A stretch of 12,598 bases of DNA, taken from the NCBI GenBank assembly GCA_900556645.1, contig USPJ01000011.1:1-12598 (forward strand), written 5' to 3'. Below the pieces are notes generated by a model. It saw only the letters and a list, made by a program, of their open reading frames with translations. It did no database searches and was not told where the DNA came from. The position numbers were made by a program, and so were the translations under genes. This stretch comes from an uncultured Lachnospiraceae bacterium. GTDB lineage: Bacteria; Bacillota_A; Clostridia; Lachnospirales; Lachnospiraceae. Each line of letters begins with the position of its first letter. Positions within the stretch are counted from its first letter, which is position 1. Below are positions 1 to 12,386 of this stretch, one piece after another.

Positions 1-45
1 AATGGACACAAATGAGATTTTGTCTATTTGGGTAAAAAATTGTGA

Positions 46-51
46 AGGAGG
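46..51 (+). promoter_or_regulatory. Ribosome binding site that decides the hydC start
   Basis: A perfect AGGAGG lies 7 nt before an in-frame TTG at 59-61. The upstream in-frame ATG at position 2 has no visible ribosome site within the window, and the residues between them (including a CEGGEG run) read like a translated Shine-Dalgarno. I therefore favour the TTG start. Confidence 0.7.
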
Positions 52-58
52 AGAAGGT

Positions 59-547
59 TTGTTAAAAAAAGAAGAAAAAAAGCAGCTTGATGCCATACTC
101 AAGGCACATGAGTACAACGCAACTGCGGTAATTGCAATCATGCAGGATATACAGAAGATATATCACTATTTACCGGAAGAGATGTTGTCCTATATTGCAA
201 AAGAGTTGGGATTGAGTGAAGCAAAAGTGTATGGGGTTGCAACTTTTTATGAAAACTTTTCATTGGAACCAAAAGGAAAGTATGTCATTAAAATCTGTGA
301 CGGAACAGCTTGCCATGTCAGAAATTCGACGGCAATTTTAGAGGAGATTCGTAGTCTGTTAGGGGTAACAGCAGAAAAACCGACCACAGAGGATATGCTG
401 TTTACCGTTGAGACGGTATCCTGTTTGGGAGCATGTGGACTTGCACCGGTCTGTACAGTTAATGATAAGGTACATCCGGCAATGACTCCGGAAAAAGCGA
501 GAGCTTTAATCAAAGAGTTAAAGGAGGAAGCTGCAAATGAGAATTAA
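59..547 (+). CDS. hydC: [FeFe] hydrogenase subunit gamma, NuoE-like HydC ([2Fe-2S] thioredoxin fold)
   Basis: Small iron-sulfur subunit of a trimeric cytoplasmic [FeFe] hydrogenase, homologous to NuoE of complex I. In this family it supports electron transfer between the flavin subunit HydB and the rest of the complex. From the TTG at 59 the protein is 162 residues, close to the usual length of about 160. A helical N-terminal half (YLPEE, then VYGVATFYENF) leads into a thioredoxin-like domain. The four [2Fe-2S] ligands are visible: C80 and C85 in CDGTAC, and C122 and C126 in CLGAC. It overlaps hydB by 11 nt, which suggests translational coupling. An in-frame ATG at 2 would add 19 residues but lacks a ribosome site in the window; the true start could also lie upstream of the window. 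Family and role are secure; the start is less so. Confidence 0.93.
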   Translation: MLKKEEKKQLDAILKAHEYNATAVIAIMQDIQKIYHYLPEEMLSYIAKELGLSEAKVYGVATFYENFSLEPKGKYVIKICDGTACHVRNSTAILEEIRSLLGVTAEKPTTEDMLFTVETVSCLGACGLAPVCTVNDKVHPAMTPEKARALIKELKEEAANEN

Positions 548-2426
548 TACAAGACAGGAATTAGAACAGAGAAGAAAAGAGTATGCAGCTTCTCTGAAAA
601 TGCAGAAAAAACAGATTTTAATCTGTGCGGGAACCGGATGTGTGGCAGGAGGTTCTTTAGATATATATGCCAGAATACAGGAGATTCTCAAAGAGCGTGG
701 AATTAAGTGTTCTCTGGTTCTGGAAAAAGAGCCACATGATGAGAGTGTGGGTTTGAAAAAAAGCGGATGTCACGGATTTTGTGAGATGGGTCCGTTGCTT
801 CGTATTGAACCGGCAGGATTATTATATATCAAAGTAAAAGTAGAAGACTGTGAAGAGATTATTGAAGAGAGTATCGTAAATGACCGTGTCATCGAGAGAC
901 TGGTTTATCATGACCAGAAGGGTGTGGCTTACGAAAAACAGGAAGAGATTCCGTTTTACAAACAGCAGACCCGTGTGGCGTTGGAGGATTGCGGACGTAT
1001 CAATGCGGAATCCATCAAAGAGTACATAGCGGTGGGCGGTTACAGTGCCGTTGCAAAGGCTCTGTTCGATATGACACCACAGCAGATAGTAGATGAAATT
1101 TCTGAGGCATCTCTCCGTGGACGTGGAGGCGGCGGCTTCCCAACCGGAAGAAAATGGGCTCAGGTTTTGGCACAGGATTCGGAAGTAAAATATGTGGTAT
1201 GTAACGGTGACGAGGGAGATCCGGGAGCATTTATGGATCGAAGCATGATGGAGGGAGATCCTCATCGTGTTATCGAGGGAATGTTGATTGCAGGTATTGC
1301 CACCGGAGCTCATTATGGATATATTTACGTGCGTGCCGAGTATCCGTTAGCCGTAGAGAGACTCCAGACAGCAATCAATAAGGCAGAGGAAAAGGGCCTG
1401 TTAGGAAAGAATATTCTGGATTCCGGTTTTGATTTTGAGTTAAAAATCAGCCAGGGTGCAGGAGCATTTGTCTGTGGCGAAGGTTCTGCCCTGACGGCTT
1501 CTATTGAAGGTAACCGTGGTATGCCTAGAGTAAAACCGCCTCGTACGGTAGAAAAAGGATTGTTTGAAAAACCAACGGTACTGAACAATGTAGAGACCTA
1601 CTGTAACGTACCGCCGATTATCAATAAAGGGGCTGAATGGTACAAGACCATCGGACCGGATAGAAACCATGGAACCAAGGCTTTTGCTTTGACTGGAAAT
1701 GTTATGAATACCGGATTGATTGAGGTACCGATGGGAACCACCCTGCGGGAGGTTATTTTTGACATCGGAGGCGGCGTCAAAGGCGGTGAGTTCAAAGCAG
1801 TACAGATTGGCGGACCATCCGGCGGATGTCTGTGTATCAATCCGTCAGAGGATCATTTGAATCTTCATTTGGATTTTGACTCTCTGAAAAAAGTAGGTGC
1901 CATGATTGGAAGCGGCGGTCTTGTTGTTATGAATGACAAGAGCTGTATGGTAGAAGTGGCAAGATTCTTTATGAACTTTACCCAGAATGAATCCTGTGGA
2001 AAATGTATTCCTTGCCGTGAGGGAACCAAGCGTATGCTGGAGCTTTTGACAGATATTTGTGAGGGAAGAGGAACCATGCAGCATATTACTCTGCTGGAAG
2101 AACTTTCTGAGACAATTTCAGCTACGGCGTTGTGTGGTCTGGGAAAAACCGCAGCATCACCGGTAGTCAGCACCATGAAATATTTCAGAGATGAATATAT
2201 TGCCCATGTAGTGGATAAGAAGTGTCCGGCAGGTCAGTGTAAGGCACTTGTAACCCTCCAGATTGATCCTGAGCTTTGTAAAGGCTGCTCTAAGTGTTCC
2301 AGAGTCTGTCCGGTTGGAGCTATTTCAGGAGAAATCAAAAAACCATTCACCATTGATACCACAAAATGTATCAAGTGCGGAGCCTGCAAGGAAGGTTGTC
2401 CATTCCATGCAGTAAAAGAAGTATAG
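537..2426 (+). CDS. hydB: [FeFe] hydrogenase subunit beta, NuoF-like HydB (FMN, NAD(H)-binding)
   Basis: Flavin subunit that exchanges electrons with NAD(P)H in HydABC-type hydrogenases. At 629 residues it has the long architecture typical of the bifurcating type. An N-terminal thioredoxin-like [2Fe-2S] domain has C30, C35, C78 and C82. The NuoF core follows, with glycine-rich GRGGGGFPTGRKW (about 195-207), NGDEGDPGAFMDR (about 223-235) and GAGAFVCGEGSAL (about 307-319) for FMN and NADH. An SLBB region comes next, then the C-terminal helical bundle with ESCGKCIPCREG (C487, C490, C493, plus C533 for a [4Fe-4S]). The tail is a two-cluster ferredoxin domain (C581, C584, C587, C591; C611, C614, C617, C621). 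The start ATG has AAGGAGG 9 nt upstream, inside the end of hydC. The stop overlaps the ribosome site of hydA. Whether the enzyme uses NAD or NADP cannot be told from sequence alone. Confidence 0.96.
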   Translation: MRINTRQELEQRRKEYAASLKMQKKQILICAGTGCVAGGSLDIYARIQEILKERGIKCSLVLEKEPHDESVGLKKSGCHGFCEMGPLLRIEPAGLLYIKVKVEDCEEIIEESIVNDRVIERLVYHDQKGVAYEKQEEIPFYKQQTRVALEDCGRINAESIKEYIAVGGYSAVAKALFDMTPQQIVDEISEASLRGRGGGGFPTGRKWAQVLAQDSEVKYVVCNGDEGDPGAFMDRSMMEGDPHRVIEGMLIAGIATGAHYGYIYVRAEYPLAVERLQTAINKAEEKGLLGKNILDSGFDFELKISQGAGAFVCGEGSALTASIEGNRGMPRVKPPRTVEKGLFEKPTVLNNVETYCNVPPIINKGAEWYKTIGPDRNHGTKAFALTGNVMNTGLIEVPMGTTLREVIFDIGGGVKGGEFKAVQIGGPSGGCLCINPSEDHLNLHLDFDSLKKVGAMIGSGGLVVMNDKSCMVEVARFFMNFTQNESCGKCIPCREGTKRMLELLTDICEGRGTMQHITLLEELSETISATALCGLGKTAASPVVSTMKYFRDEYIAHVVDKKCPAGQCKALVTLQIDPELCKGCSKCSRVCPVGAISGEIKKPFTIDTTKCIKCGACKEGCPFHAVKEV

Positions 2427-2439
2427 GAGGGAAGACGGC

Positions 2440-4140
2440 ATGGAAAAATATATGATTATAGACGGCGAACGTGTTTCGTTTACCGATGAGAAAAATATTC
2501 TTGCTGTCATCCGAAAAGCAGGAATTATCTTACCAACATTTTGTTACTATTCGGATTTGTCCATTTACGGTGCCTGCCGTATGTGTGTGGTGGAAGATGA
2601 GTGGGGCGGCATTATTGCATCCTGTTCCACACCTCCGAAGCATAAAATGGAAATCCGTACCAATACGCCACAGCTTTATTATCACAGAAAAAGAATTATA
2701 GAGTTGTTGTTGGCAGCACATTGCAGAGATTGTACTACCTGTGAGAAAAACGGAAAATGTAAGTTGCAGGAACTGGCAAGAAGATTTGGCATTCCGGGAG
2801 TTCGTTTTGAGAATACCAACCCGATTCGTCCGCTGGATACTTCATCCAAGGCGATTGTCAGAGATCCGAATAAGTGTATCCTTTGTGGTGACTGTGTTCG
2901 TGTCTGCAGCGAGATTCAGCACGTAGGAGCCATTGACTTTGCACATCGTGGTTCTAAAATGGAGATTTCCACAGCATTTGGAAAGGCCATTGCAGATACC
3001 AACTGTGTTAACTGTGGTCAGTGTGCGGCAGTCTGTCCTACAGGAGCAATTACTATTAAGAGTGATACCCATGATGTATGGGAGGCAATTCACGATTCGA
3101 AGAAACGTGTGGTTATGCAGATTGCCCCGGCAGTCCGTGTGGCTATCGGAGAGGCATACGGCTATGAGCCGGGAGAGAATACCATCGGAAAACTGATTGC
3201 ATCTTTGCGGAAACTGGGTGTAGACTATATCTTTGATACCTCTGTGGGAGCCGATTTAACTATTATGGAAGAGGCAGCAGAACTGGTAGAATCTTTGGGA
3301 GAAGAGGACCGGAAATATCCGTTGTTTACCTCCTGTTGTCCGGCGTGGATTCGGTTTGTAGAGACAAAATATCCGCATTTGATGAAATATGTCTCCACTT
3401 CCAAATCACCGATGGAGATGTTTGGTGCGGTTATCAAAGAGTACTTCAAGAAACTGGACAAAAAAGAAGGAAAAGAGACCGTATCTGTGGCAGTGATGCC
3501 TTGTACGGCAAAGAAATACGAGGCTTCCAGAGAAGAATTTGTCCGCAATGGAGTACCGGATGTGGACTATGTCATTACTTCGGAAGAGGTTATCGGTATG
3601 TTCAAAGAAATCGGTATCCGCTTTGACCGTCTGGAACCGGAAGCATATGATATGCCATTCTCTATTTATTCCGGTGCCGGAGTGATTTTTGGAGCTACCG
3701 GCGGTGTAACAGAGGCAGCAGTTCGCCGTGTGGTTGAAGATAAGAGTCCGAAGGCATTAAAGGATATTGAATTTATCGGAGCCAGAGGAATGGAAGGAAC
3801 CAAAATCTGTGAACTGGATTTAGGTGAGCGGATTGTTCGTATCGGAATTGTCAGCGGACTTGGAAATGCAGAGAAGCTGATTCAGAAAATCGAAAGCGGA
3901 GAAGAGCATTTTGACTTTGTGGAAGTCATGGCTTGTCCGGGAGGCTGTGTTGCGGGAGCAGGTCAGCCATTCGCACGCTCCATGGAAAAACGTCACAGAG
4001 CAGAGGGACTTTATAAGACGGATAAAGCACTCCAAATTAAGCGAAGCGAGAACAATCCATTGATGGATACTTTATACGGAGATTTGTTGAAAAACAGAGA
4101 ACATGAACTGCTTCATGTGCATTATCCGGATCATAAATAA
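2440..4140 (+). CDS. hydA: [FeFe] hydrogenase catalytic subunit HydA (H-cluster)
   Basis: Catalytic subunit that interconverts protons and H2. All cluster modules of the long form are present in its 566 residues: plant-type [2Fe-2S] (C35, C46, C49, C62); His-ligated [4Fe-4S] (H94, C98, C101, C107); two [4Fe-4S] ferredoxin sites (C146, C149, C152, C156; C189, C192, C195, C199); and the H-cluster domain. The three H-cluster signatures are TSCCPAW (proton-relay C299, ligand C300), MPCTAKKYE (C355, K358) and the ACPGGC segment (C499, C503, with E495 and M497 just before). The positions of H94 and of the H-cluster cysteines equal my recollection of the numbering of clostridial hydrogenase CpI. With hydC and hydB directly upstream it should be a trimeric A3-type, ferredoxin- and NAD-linked enzyme. 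It lacks the extra C-terminal [2Fe-2S] domain of the longer Thermotoga HydA. AGGAGG overlaps the hydB stop, 13 nt before this ATG. Confidence 0.96.
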   Translation: MEKYMIIDGERVSFTDEKNILAVIRKAGIILPTFCYYSDLSIYGACRMCVVEDEWGGIIASCSTPPKHKMEIRTNTPQLYYHRKRIIELLLAAHCRDCTTCEKNGKCKLQELARRFGIPGVRFENTNPIRPLDTSSKAIVRDPNKCILCGDCVRVCSEIQHVGAIDFAHRGSKMEISTAFGKAIADTNCVNCGQCAAVCPTGAITIKSDTHDVWEAIHDSKKRVVMQIAPAVRVAIGEAYGYEPGENTIGKLIASLRKLGVDYIFDTSVGADLTIMEEAAELVESLGEEDRKYPLFTSCCPAWIRFVETKYPHLMKYVSTSKSPMEMFGAVIKEYFKKLDKKEGKETVSVAVMPCTAKKYEASREEFVRNGVPDVDYVITSEEVIGMFKEIGIRFDRLEPEAYDMPFSIYSGAGVIFGATGGVTEAAVRRVVEDKSPKALKDIEFIGARGMEGTKICELDLGERIVRIGIVSGLGNAEKLIQKIESGEEHFDFVEVMACPGGCVAGAGQPFARSMEKRHRAEGLYKTDKALQIKRSENNPLMDTLYGDLLKNREHELLHVHYPDHK

Positions 4141-4286: not shown

Positions 4287-4320
4287 AATATATAAAGATG
4301 GAAAATAATGAAGATTTGAA

Positions 4321-4327
4321 GAGGTGG
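4321..4327 (+). promoter_or_regulatory. Ribosome binding site deciding the sensor-kinase start
   Basis: GAGGTGG lies 9 nt before the ATG at 4337. The ATG at 4298 has only AT-rich sequence before it and no Shine-Dalgarno. Confidence 0.6.
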
Positions 4328-4336
4328 TGGGAAATT

Positions 4337-7084
4337 ATGAAGAAGTATTATAAAGTTATATGGACTATCTTTTTTATACAGTTGATAGTAATAGCAATTG
4401 TGATAAAAACAGCAAAGGTGGATGACGAGACTTTGGCAAAAGGTAAAGTGGAGTCTTTTAACAACGGTTGGGTACTTATCAGAGAAGATGGTACAGAGAT
4501 AGATTTGCAAAAATTACCTTATAATTCTACCAGCAGACCGAATGAAAAAATCGTTATCAAAAATACGATTCCAAAGGAATACTGGGGAGAGACTTTGAGC
4601 TTTTTGTCTGCTGACAAAACGTTAAAAATCACAGTTGATGGAGAGGAAATATATACCTTTGGATTGAATGATGAGAGATTGTTTGGACGGACGCCGGGGA
4701 GTGTAATGGTATTTGCTGATATACCAAAGGATTGTGAAGTGGGGGAGATACAGATTGAGATGAGTTCTCCTTACTCCAACTATGCTACCTATTTAACGGA
4801 AATATCTGTTGCCAAAAGAGATGTGGCAATTCTTCATTTTATAGAACAAAAAGCATTTGATATTATTTTGACGATGATTATCTTGATTGCTGCTGTGGCC
4901 TTTCTAATATTGGCAATTATGCAGAAAATGTCAATCAAGAAGATTGGTGGTATGGAATATCTGGGTATATATCTGTTACTTATGAGTATTTACTATTTTA
5001 TAGAAACAAAACTACCAGAAGTATTATACGGAAATCAGACATTGTACTCTAATCTAATCTTTATTATTCTGATGACCGCACCTCTCTTTTTTGAAGCATA
5101 TTGTTATGAGGCAATGCCCGGAAATTCCAACATTATATTAGTTGCAATGTCGGTTTCCACAGCAAATGTAATAATACAGCTAATTCTTCAAATTCTGGGA
5201 TTGGTGGATTTTATGGAGATGTCATTTATTTCTCATGGAATTATTACGTTGCTTATTTTTATAAATGTGGTGGCATTAGGAAAAAATGCCAGAAAAGAGA
5301 AAAGTCTGGAGGCGGGCATGAATTTTCTGGGGATTACCTGTATGATGTTCAGTGCATTTATCGATCTTTTGAGAAGTTATATTATTAAGATTGGAGATTT
5401 TGGAAAAGCAAGCAGATACGGGGTATGTATTTTTGCAATTTGTACATTAATTATCTATATGCGTCAAATGATGCAAGAACATGTAAAATTTGTTGAGCAG
5501 GCAAAAAATGATGCTGTTGCGGCAAATGTGGCAAAAAGTCAGTTCCTTGCAAATATGTCCCATGAAATCCGTACGCCGATTAATGGAATCATAGGTATGG
5601 ATGCCATGCTTTTGAAAAATTGTGATACCTGTGATACAGAGGAAATCAGAGAATATGCAAAAAACATTCAAAGTGCCAGCCAGACCTTATTATCTATTGT
5701 CAACGATGTTTTGGACATATCTAAAATTGAATCCGGAAAAATGGAAATTATTCCGGTGGAGTATGAATTGTTTTCGGTTTTGAATGACTGTTATAACATG
5801 GCAAAAGCCAGAGCCGATGCGAAAGATTTAGGCTTTGAGATGGAGATTGATTCAAAAGTGCCATCCGTTTTATATGGAGATGAGGTTCATGTCAGACAGG
5901 TTATCAATAACTTTCTGTCAAATGCTGTGAAATATACGAAGGAAGGAAAGGTAATTCTCCGCATGGGATTTGAGCGGAAGGCAGGGGAGCAGATTCTATT
6001 AAAAGTAGAAGTGGAGGATACCGGTATTGGAATTAAAGAATCGGATATAGATAAGCTGTTTTTGAATTTTACAAGAGTTGATGAACAGAAAAACCGCAAC
6101 ATCCAAGGAACCGGATTGGGACTTAGCCTTACGAAAAATCTGGTTGAATTGATGGGTGGAAAGATTCATGTCACAAGTGAGTATGGAAAGGGTTCTGTTT
6201 TCACTGCAACGATTCCGCAGCAGATTGCAAATCCTGAACCATTGGGGGACTTTGCACAAAAATATCAGCAATATATTCATTCAGCAGAGCTGGATAATCA
6301 TGTCTTACAGGCACCAAAAGCAAAAATCCTGGTGGTGGATGATGTGGAGATGAATTTAAAAGTAGCACAGAGCTATTTAAAACAAACAGATGCAAAGGTG
6401 GATATTGCATATAGTGGAGAGGAATGTCTTCGCATGATTTGTCAGGAAAAGTATGACATTATTTTTCTTGACCACATGATGCCGGAAATGGATGGAATTG
6501 AAACCTTGAAGGCGATGAAGCAGTCAAAAGACCATCCTAATGGGGAAACACCGGTCATTGCATTGACTGCCAATGCAATTGTGGGTGCAAAGGAGAAATA
6601 TCTGGAAGAAGGTTTTACCAATTATCTGGCAAAGCCTATACATGAGGATGAATTGATGGAGATGCTCCGCAAATATTTGCCAAAGGAACTGGTGGAAATG
6701 AAAGAAAACACAAAAAAAACTGCGGACACTACGAAAGAAAAGGCTCTGGAAGAACGATTTCCAAGCTTGAATATACCATTGGGAATGGGATATTGTATGG
6801 ATGATGAAGCTTTCTTTATGGAAATAATTGATACATATATTGGTGCAGATAGAAGAGAAGTATTGGAGAAGGAATATGCCGAAGAATCATGGAAAAACTA
6901 TCAGGTTCATATGCATGCGTTAAAAAGCAGTTCACTGACCATCGGAGCAGAAAAATTGTCAGAACATGCAAAGGCTCTGGAGCTTGCAGCAAAAGATGCT
7001 GACTATCCGTATATTCGTGAACATCATAAAGAGGTAATGGCAGAGTATGAGCAATTGCTTACGGAATTGCAAAGTGGACGATAG
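4337..7084 (+). CDS. Hybrid sensor histidine kinase with 7TM sensor, receiver and HPt domains
   Basis: Membrane signal-transduction kinase with a complete internal phosphorelay. Positions here count from the upstream ATG at 4298; subtract 13 for the chosen start. A first membrane helix (about 19-37) leads to an extracellular beta-rich domain (about 40-175). A multi-helix membrane block spans about 185-390, giving a layout like the 7TMR-DISM sensors. A short coiled segment ([20 protein letters not shown]) joins it to HisKA, whose phospho-acceptor is H422 in [11 protein letters not shown]. The HATPase has N-box N537, VEDTGIGI and GTGLGLSLT. The receiver domain (about 676-790) has D681/D682, acceptor D725 in [12 protein letters not shown]757 and K779. 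A C-terminal HPt domain carries HMHALKSSS with probable acceptor H873. The ligand is unknown. No DNA-binding or enzymatic output domain is fused or adjacent, so the phosphate must pass to a partner elsewhere. Confidence 0.92.
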
Positions 7085-7646: not shown

Positions 7647-7652
7647 ATGGAT

Positions 7653-8138
7653 ATGACAAAAAGAGAGTTGGAGATTACCGATACGGAGGAGATATTAGAC
7701 ATATTGGAGAGAGGTCAAGTTCTCCACTTGGGACTCAGTGATGATGATATGCCCTATGTGGTTCCTATGAATTATGGATATACATACGAAAACGGAAAAT
7801 TAGTGTTATATATTCATGGAGCAAAATCAGGATACAAATATGAGGTAATAAAAAAGAACAACAAGGTATCCTTTTCCATAGAATGTGATGTACTTCCTTT
7901 TGAAGGAAAGGTAGCATGTCAATACGGAACCGCCTATTCCTGCGTCATGGGACAGGGAAAGGCATTTTTAGTGGAAGATGTCAAAGAAAAAATGAAAGCC
8001 TTATCCATACTGATGAAAACCCAGACAGGAAAAGACTTTACATTCGATGAAAAACTGGTATCCATTGTCAATGTGGTGCGGATAGAGGTAAATCAGTTTA
8101 CGGGAAAGAAAAGACCTCTGCCGCCAATGATGAAATAA
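7653..8138 (+). CDS. Pyridoxamine 5'-phosphate oxidase-fold flavoprotein, NimA-like
   Basis: A 161-residue split-barrel protein of the pyridoxamine 5'-phosphate oxidase superfamily, closest in pattern to the NimA/5-nitroimidazole reductase-like group. Visible family features are an N-terminal helix (TDTEEILDILERG), the barrel strands VLHLGLSDDDMPYVVPMNYGY, and IHGAKSGYK with H55, where NimA proteins have a conserved His near the flavin and nitroimidazole site. A VSFSIE strand follows, and the protein ends in a basic KKRPLPP tail. Most family members bind FMN and many have no proven substrate, so drug resistance should not be assumed. It is the last gene of the kinase operon, and its TAA directly abuts the stop codon of the opposing transporter gene, leaving no room for a terminator of its own. 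Confidence 0.88.
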   Translation: MTKRELEITDTEEILDILERGQVLHLGLSDDDMPYVVPMNYGYTYENGKLVLYIHGAKSGYKYEVIKKNNKVSFSIECDVLPFEGKVACQYGTAYSCVMGQGKAFLVEDVKEKMKALSILMKTQTGKDFTFDEKLVSIVNVVRIEVNQFTGKKRPLPPMMK

Positions 8139-8843
8139 TTAAGAATGGACGGTCATTTTTTCGTACATACGTCTGGCAAGATAGACAAAAGGGGTGTCTG
8201 CCAGACTGGTAACGATGAAGATAAGGTAACTGGAAATGGCGATGGAAATGAGGGTTTTGGTTCCGTGTACGCCATAAAAAGCACCCCATGTAAAAAGTAC
8301 CACATTTAAAAGCTGTGAAATCAATGTAGAGCCATTGTTTCGAAGCCACAAAAAGCCATGGGAGTTTCCAGTCTTTTCACTGGTGAAATGCCACCATTTG
8401 TGGTAAAGCCATACATCGAAAAGCTGAACAATGACATAAACCGCAATGCCCACCAGCATCAGCCGTGGAGTATTGGAAAAAATAGTTTTCATGGCAGGCA
8501 TGGCAAAGTCATTTTCGTTTGGCGTATAAAGCAGCCATGACTGGCTGATGAGAATGAAAATAACAGAGGTTGCAATTCCCAGCCAGACCGCTTTTTGAGC
8601 GGTCTTTTTTCCGTAAAGCTCACTTAAGATATCTGTTACCAGAAAGGTGGAGGCAAAGAGAATATTTCCCAGAGTCATCTCCATGCCAAAGGCATTCACG
8701 ATAATCAGCACCTCGATATTTGCGGCAATGGTAGCCACAATCGTCCATAAAAATAAGCCCTGTTCCCGAAAAATATAAAAAACAGCCAAAACGGCACTAT
8801 AGGTAATTAATAAAGATAAAATCAATAAAAGTTCGTTTGTCAT
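8139..8843 (-). CDS. yhhQ: Queuosine precursor transporter, YhhQ/VUT family
   Basis: Integral membrane transporter of the VUT/YhhQ family, which imports queuosine precursors (preQ0 and preQ1 in E. coli; queuine in Chlamydia). At 234 residues it has the expected length. Hydrophobic helices lie at about 6-24, 30-51, 57-72, 85-103, 127-147, 172-191 and 196-214. Family signatures include LFASTFLVTDILSELYGKK (about 62-80) and WLRNNGSTLISQ (about 166-177). From memory, many members have Asp in the following SQLLD segment; here it is Asn (N180), possibly related to substrate choice. It starts 3 nt after the radical SAM stop, with GGAGG inside the end of that gene, so the two are translationally coupled. 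It lies under the preQ1-like riboswitch, which supports a queuosine-precursor substrate. The operon context suggests the substrate may be queuine. Confidence 0.9.
   Translation of the reverse strand: MTNELLLILSLLITYSAVLAVFYIFREQGLFLWTIVATIAANIEVLIIVNAFGMEMTLGNILFASTFLVTDILSELYGKKTAQKAVWLGIATSVIFILISQSWLLYTPNENDFAMPAMKTIFSNTPRLMLVGIAVYVIVQLFDVWLYHKWWHFTSEKTGNSHGFLWLRNNGSTLISQLLNVVLFTWGAFYGVHGTKTLISIAISSYLIFIVTSLADTPFVYLARRMYEKMTVHS
8171..8206. repeat. Long hairpin in the 3' part of yhhQ
   Basis: A perfect 8-bp inverted repeat (GTCTGGCA at 8171-8178, TGCCAGAC at 8199-8206) encloses a further 4-bp pair (GACA 8184-8187, TGTC 8195-8198). No T-run follows on either strand, so it is not a standard terminator. 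It lies 33 nt inside the convergent gene border and could slow polymerase or protect the 3' ends of both transcripts. Confidence 0.5.
8585..8610 (+). terminator. Intrinsic terminator on the + strand embedded antisense in yhhQ
   Basis: A perfect 7-bp stem (AGACCGC at 8585-8591, GCGGTCT at 8599-8605) with loop TTTTTGA is followed by a T-run to 8610 on the + strand. On the - strand (yhhQ sense) the hairpin is followed by GGC, so it would not stop the yhhQ message. The upstream + operon ends without a terminator, so this site could end read-through about 450 nt into the opposing gene. Confidence 0.65.
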
Positions 8844-8846
8844 TTC

Positions 8847-9551
8847 TTAGTTTCCTCCAACTCCAAAATCTGTATTTTCCATTAAAATATCTATCCGGGG
8901 ATTCTCAGCATAGAGCGGGTAAAGCTCCCGTACAAAGAGTGAAATCACGGTATCATCCGGTTGAAGGGAGGAACCGTTGGGGGTCATAATATTGATACAG
9001 ACCCGCTGAAAGTATGTAAGAGCCGTTTCCACATCCCGTTTCATGGAAGCTGTGGTCTGTCCGGTAAGGCCGAATAAAAGGCAGGCTTCATCAAAATATT
9101 GGGCGATTTTTGCCGGGTCTTCTGTAGTAATCCCCTTATCCAAAACCTCTTCCCGGAATTTGAAATCAAAGGTTTCCACTCCGATTTTTATTTTTAGGGT
9201 AATCCCCTTGTCAGCAAAGCGTTTTCGGAAGTCAGCCACCGCCTTCCGGTGCATCCAGTGACATTCAAAATGCACCTGTGTAATGTCTTTTTCCAGACAG
9301 ATATGTTCAATCAAAGAAAGGGTCTGTTCATCTAAATCCACAAAGCTGCCGGAGTTAATGACCTCCAGACAATGGTATTTTCCGGTTACCTTTTGAAGCT
9401 GGGTGCTGTTCAAAGCAAAATTGGCAGCTTCGTCCTTGCTGTAATCCAAGTGGTAGTCGCAGAAACGGCAACGCCGCCATTTGCAGCCGCTTCCCCGCAG
9501 CATAACAATTTCACGGGGGTTTTTCTCAGTAATCATTGCGTAACGTATCAT
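8847..9551 (-). CDS. queL: Radical SAM protein, candidate queuine lyase (QueL)
   Basis: A small 234-residue radical SAM enzyme. The cluster motif is GSGCKWRRCRFCDYH, with C23, C28 and C31, giving CX4CX2C rather than the usual CX3CX2C. Later patterns fit a compact partial barrel: the strand EVINSGSF (about 63-70), VHFECHW (about 93-99), IKIGVETF (about 121-128) and a conserved-looking tail (about 223-234, NTDFGVGGN). Known background: in Clostridioides difficile and other gut bacteria, a radical SAM subgroup named QueL cleaves queuine to preQ1, which tRNA-guanine transglycosylase then reuses. The assignment here rests mainly on context: it is the first gene after a preQ1-like riboswitch and is coupled to a YhhQ transporter. 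No queuosine nucleosidase (QueK) or ECF transporter is in the window. The start ATG has AAGGAG 6 nt upstream. Another queuosine-related radical SAM role (QueE-like) is less likely given the size and motif. Confidence 0.7.
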   Translation of the reverse strand: MIRYAMITEKNPREIVMLRGSGCKWRRCRFCDYHLDYSKDEAANFALNSTQLQKVTGKYHCLEVINSGSFVDLDEQTLSLIEHICLEKDITQVHFECHWMHRKAVADFRKRFADKGITLKIKIGVETFDFKFREEVLDKGITTEDPAKIAQYFDEACLLFGLTGQTTASMKRDVETALTYFQRVCINIMTPNGSSLQPDDTVISLFVRELYPLYAENPRIDILMENTDFGVGGN

Positions 9552-9591
9552 AAATTCTCCTTACTCTCGTAGGAATCTTTGTATGGAGACC

Positions 9592-9619
9592 AATAAAAAA
9601 GGACACAAAAGCTGTGTCC
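9592..9619 (-). terminator. Intrinsic terminator of the riboswitch expression platform
   Basis: Read on the - strand, GGACACA (9619-9613) pairs with TGTGTCC (9607-9601) around a 5-nt loop and is followed by TTTTTT and ATT. It lies about 40 nt before the radical SAM start codon. The 5' arm is also the target of the antiterminator pairing with the aptamer loop (9690-9699), so the two structures exclude each other. Confidence 0.88.
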
Positions 9620-9635
9620 ATCCATACGAATTCCA

Positions 9636-9657
9636 TTTTGATATAAAAATATCAAAA
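9636..9657. repeat. Perfect AU-rich hairpin between aptamer and terminator
   Basis: A perfect 9-bp inverted repeat (TTTTGATAT / ATATCAAAA) with loop TTTT lies in the leader between the aptamer and the terminator. It could act as a spacer that brings the aptamer loop close to the terminator arm, or as a pause site. Function is inferred only. Confidence 0.5.
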
Positions 9658-9668
9658 GAAAGTTCAAT

Positions 9669-9708
9669 CCCTAGTTTTGTTTATAGACAGGATGGTCACG
9701 AACTGTCT
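9669..9708 (-). promoter_or_regulatory. preQ1-I-like riboswitch aptamer
   Basis: On the - strand a 6-bp P1 stem (AGACAG 9708-9703, CTGTCT 9690-9685) encloses a 12-nt loop (TTCGTGACCATC) that ends in C directly before the 3' arm. In preQ1-I aptamers that C pairs with the ligand. An A-rich tail follows (ATAAACAAAACTAGGG), as in known preQ1-I RNAs; loop and tail can form a short, imperfect P2 pseudoknot (G-C, U-A, C-G). It begins about 13 nt after the predicted transcription start and precedes two queuosine-salvage genes. Class and ligand are inferred from this layout and from memory of known examples; no covariance search was possible. Confidence 0.82.
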
Positions 9709-9727
9709 TATGTAATTGACGAAAGGT

Positions 9728-9756
9728 ATTGTAGCACAGCTTTCACAAAGTTGCAA
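9728..9756 (-). promoter_or_regulatory. Sigma-A promoter of the riboswitch/queL/yhhQ operon
   Basis: On the - strand the -35 TTGCAA (9756-9751) and -10 TACAAT (9733-9728) are separated by exactly 17 nt. The start point should be near 9721, just before the aptamer. The leader to the queL ATG would be about 170 nt. Confidence 0.78.
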
Positions 9757-9758
9757 GA

Positions 9759-9787
9759 TTTACAATCCTTTCATTTTTTAGTAAAAT
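9759..9787 (+). promoter_or_regulatory. Sigma-A promoter of the PPDK-like gene
   Basis: -35 TTTACA (9759-9764) and -10 TAAAAT (9782-9787) have a 17-nt spacer, giving a leader of about 30 nt before the AGGAGGAGG ribosome site and ATG at 9825. Its -35 lies two bases from the -35 of the divergent promoter. Confidence 0.65.
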
Positions 9788-9824
9788 ATTTAAAAATTCG
9801 ATATCAGCATAGGAGGAGGGTAAT

Positions 9825-12386
9825 ATGGCAGCATTTGAACGTATACAATCGGGAATCCCTGAGATGGATCAGGCGTTGGATAACATTCGCTTGGGAGACA
9901 ATGTGGTATGGCAGGTGACCAATCTGGAAGAGTTCCGGTATTTTGTAAATCCCTTTGTGAAACAGGCATTGGCAGATAAACGGAATCTTATCTACATCCG
10001 TTTTGCAAGCCATGAACCTTTTGTGGAAAAACAGGAAGGGGTCAAGGTCTATGAGGTGGAGCTTTCTCATAAATTTGAAACCTTTACCGCCACCATTCAC
10101 CACATTATAGAAAAGGAAGGCTATGATGCCTTTTATGTGTTCGATTGCCTTTCAGAACTACAGGTGGCATGGTCTACGGATTTGATGATGGGGAACTTTT
10201 TTAAAGTTACCTGTCCTTTCCTGTTTCAGTTGGATACAGTTGCCTTTTTCCCGATTATCCGAGGAAGACATTCCTATCAAGCTATTGCCAAGATTCGGGA
10301 GACTACGCAGCTACTGCTGGATGTGTACGGAGAAGAAGAGCTGTATGTGCATCCGCTGAAGGTCTGGAACCGCTATACGCCTACCATGTTCATGCCATAT
10401 CTGTACAAACCGGAGTCGGGAGAATTTCGTGCTGTGACCGATGGTGTGGATATGAGCCGTTACTATGCTGTCCTGAACAAGAACCAGAATCTCGAGGAGG
10501 TGGAAACGGATAGTTGGGACCGTTTCTTCCATATGGCAAAACTGCAAAAAGCTGCGGGAGTTCTGCCTAGGGAAGCCCTTCATACCATGTGCCGGATTAT
10601 GATGACCCGGGACGAAAGGCTACGGGAACTGGTGGAGGAATATTTTGAGGCGGAGGACTATTTTGAAATCCGAAACCGTATGATTGGAACGGGAACTATT
10701 GGAGGAAAAGCCAGCGGTATGTTGTTGGCGAGAAAAATCATCGAGAAAAAGCTGCCACAGGTAAAAGCAAAGATGGAGCCTCATGATTCCTTCTTTATCG
10801 GAGCAGATGTGTTCTACACCTTTATTGTGGAAAATAATTGCTGGGATTTGCGGATTCGCCAGCGGACACAAGAGGGGTATTTTCAGGTGGCACAGGAATT
10901 TCAGAATGCCATTTTAGAGGGACATTTCCCGGAGGATATTCGGGAAAAATTCCGAAGGATGCTGGACTATTTCGGGACCTGCCCGATTATCGTACGCTCC
11001 AGTAGTATTTTAGAGGACGGTTTCGGAAATGCCTTTGCGGGAAAATATGACTCTTATTTCTGTGTAAACGGCGGAACGGCAGAGGAACGTTTGGAAGCTT
11101 TGGAAGAGGCGGTAAAAAAAGTTTACGCCAGCACCCTGAATCCCTCTGCTTTGGAGTACCGAAAAATTAGAAATTTGCAAGAGAAGGACGAGCAGATGGC
11201 AATTCTGGTACAGCGGGTATCCGGTTCCTATTTTGACCATTTGTTTATGCCGTATGCTGCAGGCGTGGGATATTCTTACAGTATGTACCGTTTTATGCAG
11301 GAGATGGACCCGGCGGCAGGAATGCTTCGGATTGTGGCAGGTCTTGGAACAAAGGCGGTGGACCGTACCCAAGGGGATTATCCGAGATTAATCAGTATGG
11401 ATAAGCCTCTTGCCTTTGCAAGACCGGATGTGGCAGACCGCCACCGCTATTCCCAGAGAAAACTGGATGTGCTGGATTTGGAGAAAAATGAGCTGACGGA
11501 GGTATCCATGGAAGAGGTGCTGCCGCTGATGTCAAAGGTATACAAAAAGAATCTTTTGGAGCATGATACCGATGCCGAGAGAAGGCTGCGGGAACAGGGA
11601 CATTATCGGGAGGTCTATTTCATTTCCTGTCAGGGACTGGCTCGTAATCAGGTATTTACCGATACCATGAAGGAAATGCTGGCGGTGTTGGAGAAAGTTT
11701 ACGGAACGGCAGTAGATATTGAATATACAGTCAATCTGGGTGAGGATGATGACTTTGTGGTGAATCTGCTGCAATGCCGTCCTCTTCAGGTTTGTGTGGG
11801 AGGAAAAAAGGTGGACATTCCTCAGATTCCTAAGGAACGCACCCTCCTTCACATTGAACACAGCACCATGGGACGTTCCCGGGCGGAAGAGGTGCAGGTG
11901 CTGGTAAAGGTGGATGCCTATGCTTATTATAGCTATCCTTATGCGAATAAGCCTTCGGTGGCAAGGGCAATCGGAAAAATCAATGCTCATTTCAAAGAGC
12001 AGGGAAAGGGAATGGTACTTCTGGTGCCGGGCAGAATCGGAACCTCATCACCGGAACTGGGTGTCCCGGTGGCGTTTGCGGACATCAGCGGATTTCAGGC
12101 GATTTTTGAGGTGGCGTACAGTCAGGTGGGATATATGCCGGAGCTTTCCTACGGAAGCCATATGTTTCAGGATTTGGTGGAATCTGATATCTTCTACGGA
12201 GCAGTGTTTGAGAATGAGAAGCGGAAGCTATATCAGCCGGAGCTGATGGACAAGCTGCCGAATCACTTTTTGGAAATTTGCCCGGAATATGAGGAATTAA
12301 AGGATATGATAGAGGTCTGCATACTTGAAGAGGGAAGCAGACTGTACTATGATATGGAGTCGGAACAGGCAGTTTTACAGATTTAG
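9825..12386 (+). CDS. PEP/pyruvate-binding (PPDK N-terminal type) protein with N-terminal KaiC-like domain
   Basis: An 853-residue cytoplasmic protein. The first ~210 residues look like a KaiC/RecA-type domain: opening IQSGIPEMDQAL, a Walker B-like strand DAFYVFDCLSEL (about 101-112), and a late FFPIIRGRHS. The place of Walker A reads NVVWQVTNLEEF, with no GKT/S, so it is probably inactive. From about 285 it matches the nucleotide-binding ATP-grasp module of pyruvate phosphate dikinase and PEP synthase: GTIGGKASGM (about 290-299), PIIVRSSSILEDGFGNAFAGKY (387-408; key residues R391, E397, D398, G407 and K408), MAILVQRVSG (about 458-467), IVAGLGTKAVDR (about 503-514) and VVNLLQCRPLQ (about 645-655). 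The C-terminal part has LLVPGRIGTSSPELGVPV (about 732-749) and SYGSHMFQDLVE (about 775-786). The phospho-histidine swivel domain and the PEP-binding barrel are absent, so it is not a complete PPDK or PEP synthase. Reaction and substrate are unknown. A strong AGGAGGAGG precedes the start. Confidence 0.85.
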   Translation: MAAFERIQSGIPEMDQALDNIRLGDNVVWQVTNLEEFRYFVNPFVKQALADKRNLIYIRFASHEPFVEKQEGVKVYEVELSHKFETFTATIHHIIEKEGYDAFYVFDCLSELQVAWSTDLMMGNFFKVTCPFLFQLDTVAFFPIIRGRHSYQAIAKIRETTQLLLDVYGEEELYVHPLKVWNRYTPTMFMPYLYKPESGEFRAVTDGVDMSRYYAVLNKNQNLEEVETDSWDRFFHMAKLQKAAGVLPREALHTMCRIMMTRDERLRELVEEYFEAEDYFEIRNRMIGTGTIGGKASGMLLARKIIEKKLPQVKAKMEPHDSFFIGADVFYTFIVENNCWDLRIRQRTQEGYFQVAQEFQNAILEGHFPEDIREKFRRMLDYFGTCPIIVRSSSILEDGFGNAFAGKYDSYFCVNGGTAEERLEALEEAVKKVYASTLNPSALEYRKIRNLQEKDEQMAILVQRVSGSYFDHLFMPYAAGVGYSYSMYRFMQEMDPAAGMLRIVAGLGTKAVDRTQGDYPRLISMDKPLAFARPDVADRHRYSQRKLDVLDLEKNELTEVSMEEVLPLMSKVYKKNLLEHDTDAERRLREQGHYREVYFISCQGLARNQVFTDTMKEMLAVLEKVYGTAVDIEYTVNLGEDDDFVVNLLQCRPLQVCVGGKKVDIPQIPKERTLLHIEHSTMGRSRAEEVQVLVKVDAYAYYSYPYANKPSVARAIGKINAHFKEQGKGMVLLVPGRIGTSSPELGVPVAFADISGFQAIFEVAYSQVGYMPELSYGSHMFQDLVESDIFYGAVFENEKRKLYQPELMDKLPNHFLEICPEYEELKDMIEVCILEEGSRLYYDMESEQAVLQI

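Follow-up and report, generated by a model that had tools for sequence, protein, structure and literature searches.

Hosts are unable to synthesize the micronutrient queuine. The enzyme QueL and the queK-qrtT-queL salvage system of C. difficile are reportedly the subject of the QueL paper of Yuan et al. (PNAS, 2019). Several elements of the locus described below are already known from published accounts, which are cited throughout from excerpts: QueL itself, the import of queuine by a Chlamydia member of the queuosine precursor transporter family (QPTR, or YhhQ), and the control of queL and of yhhQ by preQ1 (PMC11477304, PMC11570991, PMC11130926, PMC12519234). A preQ1 riboswitch over queL is known in C. 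difficile (PMC11477304), and yhhQ, queT, qrtT, queL, and queK are found under preQ1 riboswitches in general (PMC12519234). Most species of the large intestine are described in the excerpted account as lacking queDECF and as having QueKL and transporters (PMC11130926).

The window, the whole 12,598-nucleotide stretch of Lachnospiraceae DNA that was analyzed, contains a two-gene operon in which queL is followed by a yhhQ gene. Both genes are on the minus strand, have ATG starts and 234 codons each, and together span 8139..9551. In the order of transcription, the features are as follows.

9728..9756, minus strand: promoter-like site TTGCAA-17-TACAAT, with TG preceding the second hexamer (consensus scan)
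9668..9711, minus strand: preQ1-I (type-I-like) aptamer (sub-threshold RF00522 match, core conservation, pair counts)
9708-9703 with 9690-9685, minus strand: aptamer stem P1, enclosing the loop 9702-9691; A-rich tail AAACAAAACTAGGGA at 9682-9668
9601..9619, minus strand: intrinsic-terminator-like hairpin GGACACAGCTTTTGTGTCC, 8 pairs and a 3-nt loop, then TTTTTT
9557..9562, minus strand: queL ribosome-binding site AAGGAG (read from the sequence)
8847..9551, minus strand: queL, radical SAM queuine lyase homolog, 234 aa (6p78 match, model, tree)
8854..8858, minus strand: GGAGG within the 3' end of queL, candidate coupled ribosome-binding site (read from the sequence)
8139..8843, minus strand: yhhQ/QPTR, QueL-linked clade, Asn at residue 180 (TIGR00697, PF02592, tree)

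The spacer between the two genes is 3 nt long (8844-8846), and the GGAGG motif at 8858-8854 sits 10 nt ahead of the yhhQ start codon. This spacing is compatible with the translational coupling proposed in the preliminary description, of which the layout stands and the coupling itself is a prediction from that layout. Among the open reading frames of the window, neither a QueK nor a QrtT gene is found beside queL, and the operon has no hydrolase gene.

The genes around the operon are all on the plus strand. Three genes at 2-4140 resemble those of a NADH-dependent group A6-like [FeFe] hydrogenase (NuoE-like, NuoF-like, and a catalytic subunit that scores 693 bits against an A6 cut-off of 765), and they are followed at 4298-7084 by a gene for a large hybrid sensor histidine kinase/response regulator. 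A pyridoxamine-5'-phosphate-oxidase-like protein encoded at 7647-8138 abuts the end of yhhQ; its top NCBIfam model, NimABCDEF, is matched at 64 bits, far below the cut-off of 260. Divergent from queL is a gene at 9825-12386 for an 853-aa protein with a PPDK_N domain at residues 291-668 and an N-terminal third without a Pfam family assignment, and its promoter-like site (9759-9787) and the queL promoter-like site are arranged back to back.

The radical SAM protein is almost certainly a QueL homolog. It matches PDB entry 6p78 ("Queuine lyase") in a phmmer search over residues 1-232 of 234 (165 bits, E 3e-47), and it shares 38-39% identity over its full length with this Clostridium spiroforme QueL, whose structure entry names SAM and queuine as bound ligands in its title. 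An AlphaFold2 model built from 26 sequences (mean pLDDT 92) has 6P78 as its top Foldseek match, with TM scores of 0.92/0.94, against 0.48/0.31 for the runner-up. The preliminary description had called the protein a QueL candidate and had named comparison with the structure of a characterized QueL as a check; the fold agrees. C23, C28, and C31, which are invariant in an alignment of 34 QueL sequences (A2) and also occur in 6P78, would provide the cysteine triplet for the Fe-S cluster, and across these 34 sequences, which represent both of the clades described below, 42 columns are invariant. No Pfam family matched the protein at an E value of 0.001, and the NCBIfam search returned only a weak match, to RaSEA (TIGR01210; 38.5 bits against a cut-off of 212).

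A QueL tree was built from 93 reading frames that scored more than 150 bits, minus L045 (incomplete) and L114 (excluded by the trimming rule), plus the window protein and 6P78; merging of identical sequences reduced the resulting 93 rows to 85. A branch with 100/100 support separates clade A, which consists of 61 rows including the window protein, from a side that holds clade B, 6P78, and L113; the bootstrap of the tree is unsettled, and the 6P78 branch is long. Eight positions are fixed differently in clades A and B. The possibility raised earlier that the protein falls outside the QueL subgroup is not borne out by its fold and full-length homology, which are those of QueL, though in this tree it groups in a QueL clade apart. 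By homology, the window enzyme would convert queuine to preQ1.

The product of the second gene is a member of the QPTR family, matching both TIGR00697 ("queuosine precursor transporter"; 160.3 bits, cut-off 50.95) and PF02592 (151.7 bits, cut-off 27.2). It scores only 25 bits against the preQ0/preQ1 transporter model, for which the cut-off is 252, and no solved structure was matched by sequence. In a tree of 150 QPTR sequences (FastTree, local support only), the window protein falls into a 59-row clade with a support of 100, which comprises 56 transporters encoded next to queL and three from genomes without a QueL match (L138 in G432, L144 in G476, and L145 in G462). All three are accompanied by the riboswitch; in these genomes the transporter apparently functions independently of QueL and may carry preQ1. 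The branch of E. coli YhhQ is very long, which makes its placement uninformative. Residue 180 is Asn in 59/59 members of the QueL-linked clade and Asp in the other 91/91 transporters of the set, among them E. coli YhhQ. Further marks of the clade are a short insertion in which His148 and Trp151 are fixed, as well as Glu55 (97%), Trp103, and Val135. A second pairing of QueL with a QPTR, seen in L113 and L114, involves another QPTR clade. Asn180 is dispensable for pairing with QueL, because the transporters of these two loci are paired with it and retain Asp at this position.

The pairing of queL with yhhQ in place of an ECF transporter, which the preliminary description had pointed out in the window, extends to its relatives: a QPTR gene lies directly downstream of queL in 44 of 46 related loci (the contig of L039 includes just a fragment of it), and the idea of an isolated peculiarity was rejected on this count. 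The length of the gap between the two genes could be read in 36 of the 47 loci, and the other 11 include L003 and L004, which lack the QPTR. At the level of the phylum, 93 of 398 genomes contain a QPTR above the cut-off. QueL was sought in 80 of these 93 (the remainder being 12 that were left out and G004, already known) and was present in five, adjoining the QPTR in 5/5; G004 is the sixth.

Within the family of G004, 43 of 397 genomes have a QueL match, of which 20 belong to clade A (51-70% identity to the window QueL), 22 belong to clade B (41-47%), and one is a fragment. The clade B loci have a different arrangement. In 21/22, queL has as its neighbor an S-component gene resembling the one in L071, and QueK is encoded beside the S component in 20/22, which is the gene order reported for C. 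difficile; of the exceptions, L082 is on a contig that begins at queL, and L073 lacks QueK but has the S component.

An inventory of queuosine-related genes covered 61 genomes: 25 with a clade A QueL (18 from the 46 loci and 7 others, with 7 further clade A genomes left out), 22 with a clade B QueL, and 14 that are QueL negative. Its counts are descriptive, given the relatedness of the genomes and the draft state of many. Fisher tests presuppose independent genomes, which these are not, and the counts alone are used. A QPTR was found in 22/25 clade A, 0/22 clade B, and 0/14 QueL-negative genomes; the corresponding counts for QueK (at least 54% identity) are 3/25, 20/22, and 0/14. QPTR and QueK are mutually exclusive among the 47 QueL genomes, QueK being present in 0/22 genomes with a QPTR and in 23/25 without one. 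The three clade A genomes with QueK (G002, G003, and G153) coincide exactly with those that lack a QPTR, and in each of them queK and a qrtT-like gene (judged by eye) lie on a contig other than that of queL (loci L208 to L210). Clade A QueL seems to be exchangeable with clade B QueL, because in these three genomes it occurs without a QPTR and with queK-qrtT elsewhere. Neither QPTR nor QueK is present in G387 or in G110, whose contig begins at queL. QueT is encoded in 2/25 clade A, 12/22 clade B, and 8/14 QueL-negative genomes. It was also observed that the lone clade A queL of G002, G003, and G153 has no detected riboswitch, the parts of the modules being split and mixed in these genomes.

The remainder of the pathway was traced in the same genomes. 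The preliminary description had proposed a check for tgt, queA, and queG/queH, and it had noted that a full de novo preQ1 pathway would make salvage unnecessary; no such full pathway was found in the relatives. Neither QueC nor QueF scored above its cut-off in any of the 47 QueL genomes (0/25 clade A and 0/22 clade B for each), compared with 5/14 (QueC) and 6/14 (QueF) of the QueL-negative genomes. The weak QueF matches, which span only a portion of the model, probably represent FolE. QueA is encoded in 25/25 clade A, 22/22 clade B, and 13/14 QueL-negative genomes and QueH in 20/25, 20/22, and 14/14. Tgt was found in all 18 clade A genomes tested, above the cut-off in 17, and the pocket motif GGLAVGE, of a type described for preQ1-inserting Tgt (PMC11570991), is present in 17/17 Tgt sequences examined. 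Judging from these relatives, the organism of the window would also have Tgt, QueA, and QueH. In G014, Tgt is in two pieces in different frames, for which pathway decay and a sequencing error are both possible.

The leader of the window operon matches the Rfam preQ1 model RF00522 at 9711-9665 below threshold (26.2 bits, E 0.0018, gathering cut-off 39), and at the gathering cut-off Rfam reports no PreQ1 in 6/6 sister loci; in contrast, the threshold is passed in 7/8 of the clade B queL loci scanned. The preliminary description had named a preQ1-like riboswitch; conservation bears this out, and the Rfam score by itself does not. The core CAGUUYGNVACCAUCCUG precedes queL in 41 of 47 loci, the window included, and in 34 of these aptamers (alignment A1, from which near-duplicates and two atypical copies, L025 and L042, were left out) P1 is paired in 204/204 cells. 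A chance resemblance was rejected on these two counts. Two of the six P1 pairs show two-sided changes and the other four are invariant; among 56 distinct aptamers, the three P1 pairs outside the fixed core form in 56, 56, and 54, respectively. The core is missing from six loci, namely L045 and L046, which have almost no upstream DNA, L003 and L004, which lack the QPTR, and L001 and L031, where the QueL-QPTR pair is present and the motif was not detected. The published type I consensus, as given in the excerpt, has UU after the 5' strand of P1, UC before the 3' strand, and a conserved C in the tail (PMC11625349). In the 34 A1 rows, UU and UC are invariant at these positions and so is the tail AAAACUA, which includes a C; the window aptamer fits the wording for type I, with a putative match of the tail C. 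The two unaligned aptamers, L025 and L042, differ in linker or tail. The unusual tail of L025 lies ahead of queL in G014 (Chakrabartyella piscis).

A motif model (R1) also matches the window aptamer, which was in its training set. When applied to 96 QPTR loci of the phylum sample, it matched 17 at an E value of <1e-4, including five QueL-QPTR loci and L157. In L157 (3177-3234), the same aptamer form precedes queF (QueF, 170 bits) beside a QPTR of another clade. Because the product of QueF is preQ1, this placement indicates preQ1 as the ligand, and the alternative that the aptamer senses queuine instead carries little weight. The form is also seen before a queF judged by eye in L187 (1668-1728), beside a QPTR of another clade. 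A genome-wide Rfam search that scored 150 candidates in each of 18 genomes gave one PreQ1 match, below the cut-off, and is of little informative value. This match, in G008 (C25:437798-437845, plus strand), lies 30 bases before a QueT gene, and G008 thus seems to have a QueL-QPTR operon as well as a QueT transporter. The aptamers described here would form a riboswitch subgroup that the threshold of Rfam misses.

The promoter-like site at 9728..9756 would start the RNA just ahead of the aptamer. Such sites number seven in the region 8000-9830 against 4.0 expected, which is weak evidence by itself, and the position fits. Terminator-like sites are similarly near expectation in the region (3 against 1.9). 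Across loci, 31 of 41 leaders have a terminator-like hairpin that separates the aptamer from queL, compared with about 4.2 in resampled sequence, and the hairpin at 9601..9619 is likely the expression platform. The minimum-energy fold of the window leader (z -2.2) contains both P1 and this hairpin; an antiterminator was sought in the window leader and none was identified. The arrangement suggests that preQ1 lowers expression of the operon, i.e., that the riboswitch is an OFF switch. The feedback that had been proposed earlier, in which the operon would be controlled by the product of its own enzyme, is not special to this operon, given the published cases of queL and related genes (PMC11477304, PMC12519234).

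We consider it fairly probable that the QPTR imports queuine, that QueL makes preQ1 from it, and that preQ1 represses the operon. Free queuine, possibly along with preQ1, would enter by way of the YhhQ-family transporter, and QueL would act as a radical SAM lyase that cleaves queuine to preQ1. A preQ1-selective Tgt would then insert the preQ1 into tRNA, where QueA and QueH (or QueG) would rebuild queuosine. Binding of preQ1 to the type-I-like aptamer would favor the terminator and turn the operon off, so that import and conversion would stop when preQ1 is plentiful. We infer queuine as the transported substrate because QueK is absent, because QueC and QueF are absent in the relatives, and because Tgt is of the preQ1 type.

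Other substrates would give the operon a different meaning. If the QPTR imported preQ1 only, as E. coli YhhQ does, QueL could separately recycle internal queuine, and the two genes would share an operon since both raise preQ1. preQ1 riboswitches are indeed known before the preQ1 importers queT and yhhQ (PMC11625349), and the three members of the transporter clade that have the riboswitch and no QueL are the best evidence that preQ1 may be carried, also or instead. Internal recycling, however, needs a nucleosidase, and QueK is missing from every one of the QueL-QPTR genomes; the QPTR is complementary to the QueK-ECF module throughout the QueL genomes save G387 and G110, and the window QPTR falls far short of the cut-off of the preQ0/preQ1 transporter model. 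On balance, import of preQ1 alone appears rather unlikely. The nucleoside is another candidate, in that the QPTR could import queuosine and some other hydrolase could release queuine for QueL. A QPTR from B. henselae enabled E. coli with the queK and queL genes of C. difficile to use 5 uM Q (PMC11570991), and nucleoside-hydrolase paralogs (30-35% identity) are present in 3 of the 22 QueL-QPTR genomes (G008, G014, and G015). The other 19 have no hydrolase that matches the QueK query at an E value of 1e-10, and the window operon itself encodes none, which makes nucleoside import decidedly improbable.

A further possibility concerns the enzyme: the clade A radical SAM protein could share the fold of QueL and act on another 7-deazaguanine, for example as a RaSEA-like lyase. 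RaSEA functions in archaeosine synthesis in archaea. Clade A is separate from the solved QueL and differs from clade B at the eight fixed positions, and the weak match to TIGR01210 points in the same direction, yet L113, on the clade B side, also scores 51.5 bits against this model, and the RaSEA name in NCBIfam denotes archaeosine synthesis. The full-length agreement with the QueL fold, the shared invariant residues including the cysteines, and the apparent exchangeability of clade A QueL in the three genomes with queK-qrtT elsewhere argue against a different substrate, which we regard as highly improbable.

If queuine import is correct, a group of Lachnospiraceae and related bacteria obtains queuine by two genes and without an ECF transporter. 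Schemes based on the presence or absence of genes would label these genomes preQ1 salvagers from their QueA and, mostly, QueH, whereas here they would be queuine salvagers. The queL-QPTR operon would be an alternative to queK-qrtT-queL, where a QueL of a different clade is supplied by an ECF S component together with a queuosine hydrolase. A broader proposal, to which we give about an even chance, is that the QueL-linked QPTR clade is a re-specialized queuine importer that replaced ECF uptake and the QueK step, marked by the change of Asp180 to Asn and by the His148/Trp151 insertion; that QueL-bearing Clostridia form two exclusive guilds; and that the pairing arose at least twice. One guild would then scavenge queuosine as well as queuine (queK-qrtT-queL) and the other queuine only (queL-QPTR). 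N180 would offer a concrete residue in a transporter family of mostly unknown specificity.

What the analysis adds is that the pairing of QueL with a QPTR is clade-wide and excludes QueK. In the portions of the literature that were examined, a body to which the founding 2019 QueL study does not belong, no description was found of a QueL-QPTR module, of the exclusion of QueK, or of the Asn180 signature. The Clostridium spiroforme QueL of 6P78 has the same fold as the window protein and lies on the clade B side of the tree, a placement that is unsure given its long branch. E. coli yhhQ is likewise a QPTR gene under a preQ1-I riboswitch, but it differs in having no QueL, in importing preQ0/preQ1, and in a type III aptamer (PMC10622847), and its product has Asp at the position of N180. 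The system of Chlamydia trachomatis, in which queuine import by a QPTR-family protein has been proposed, relies on a Tgt that accepts queuine (PMC11570991), whereas the relatives of the window keep QueL and QueA and have a Tgt pocket of the preQ1 type. Closest is the queK-qrtT-queL module of C. difficile, where QueL makes preQ1 from queuine for a canonical Tgt, a preQ1-I riboswitch lies upstream, and preQ1 synthesis is absent (PMC11477304). In contrast to that module, the window has a QPTR rather than the ECF S component QrtT, no QueK, a QueL from a separate clade, and a form of the aptamer that stays under the Rfam threshold passed by nearly all of the clade B loci scanned.
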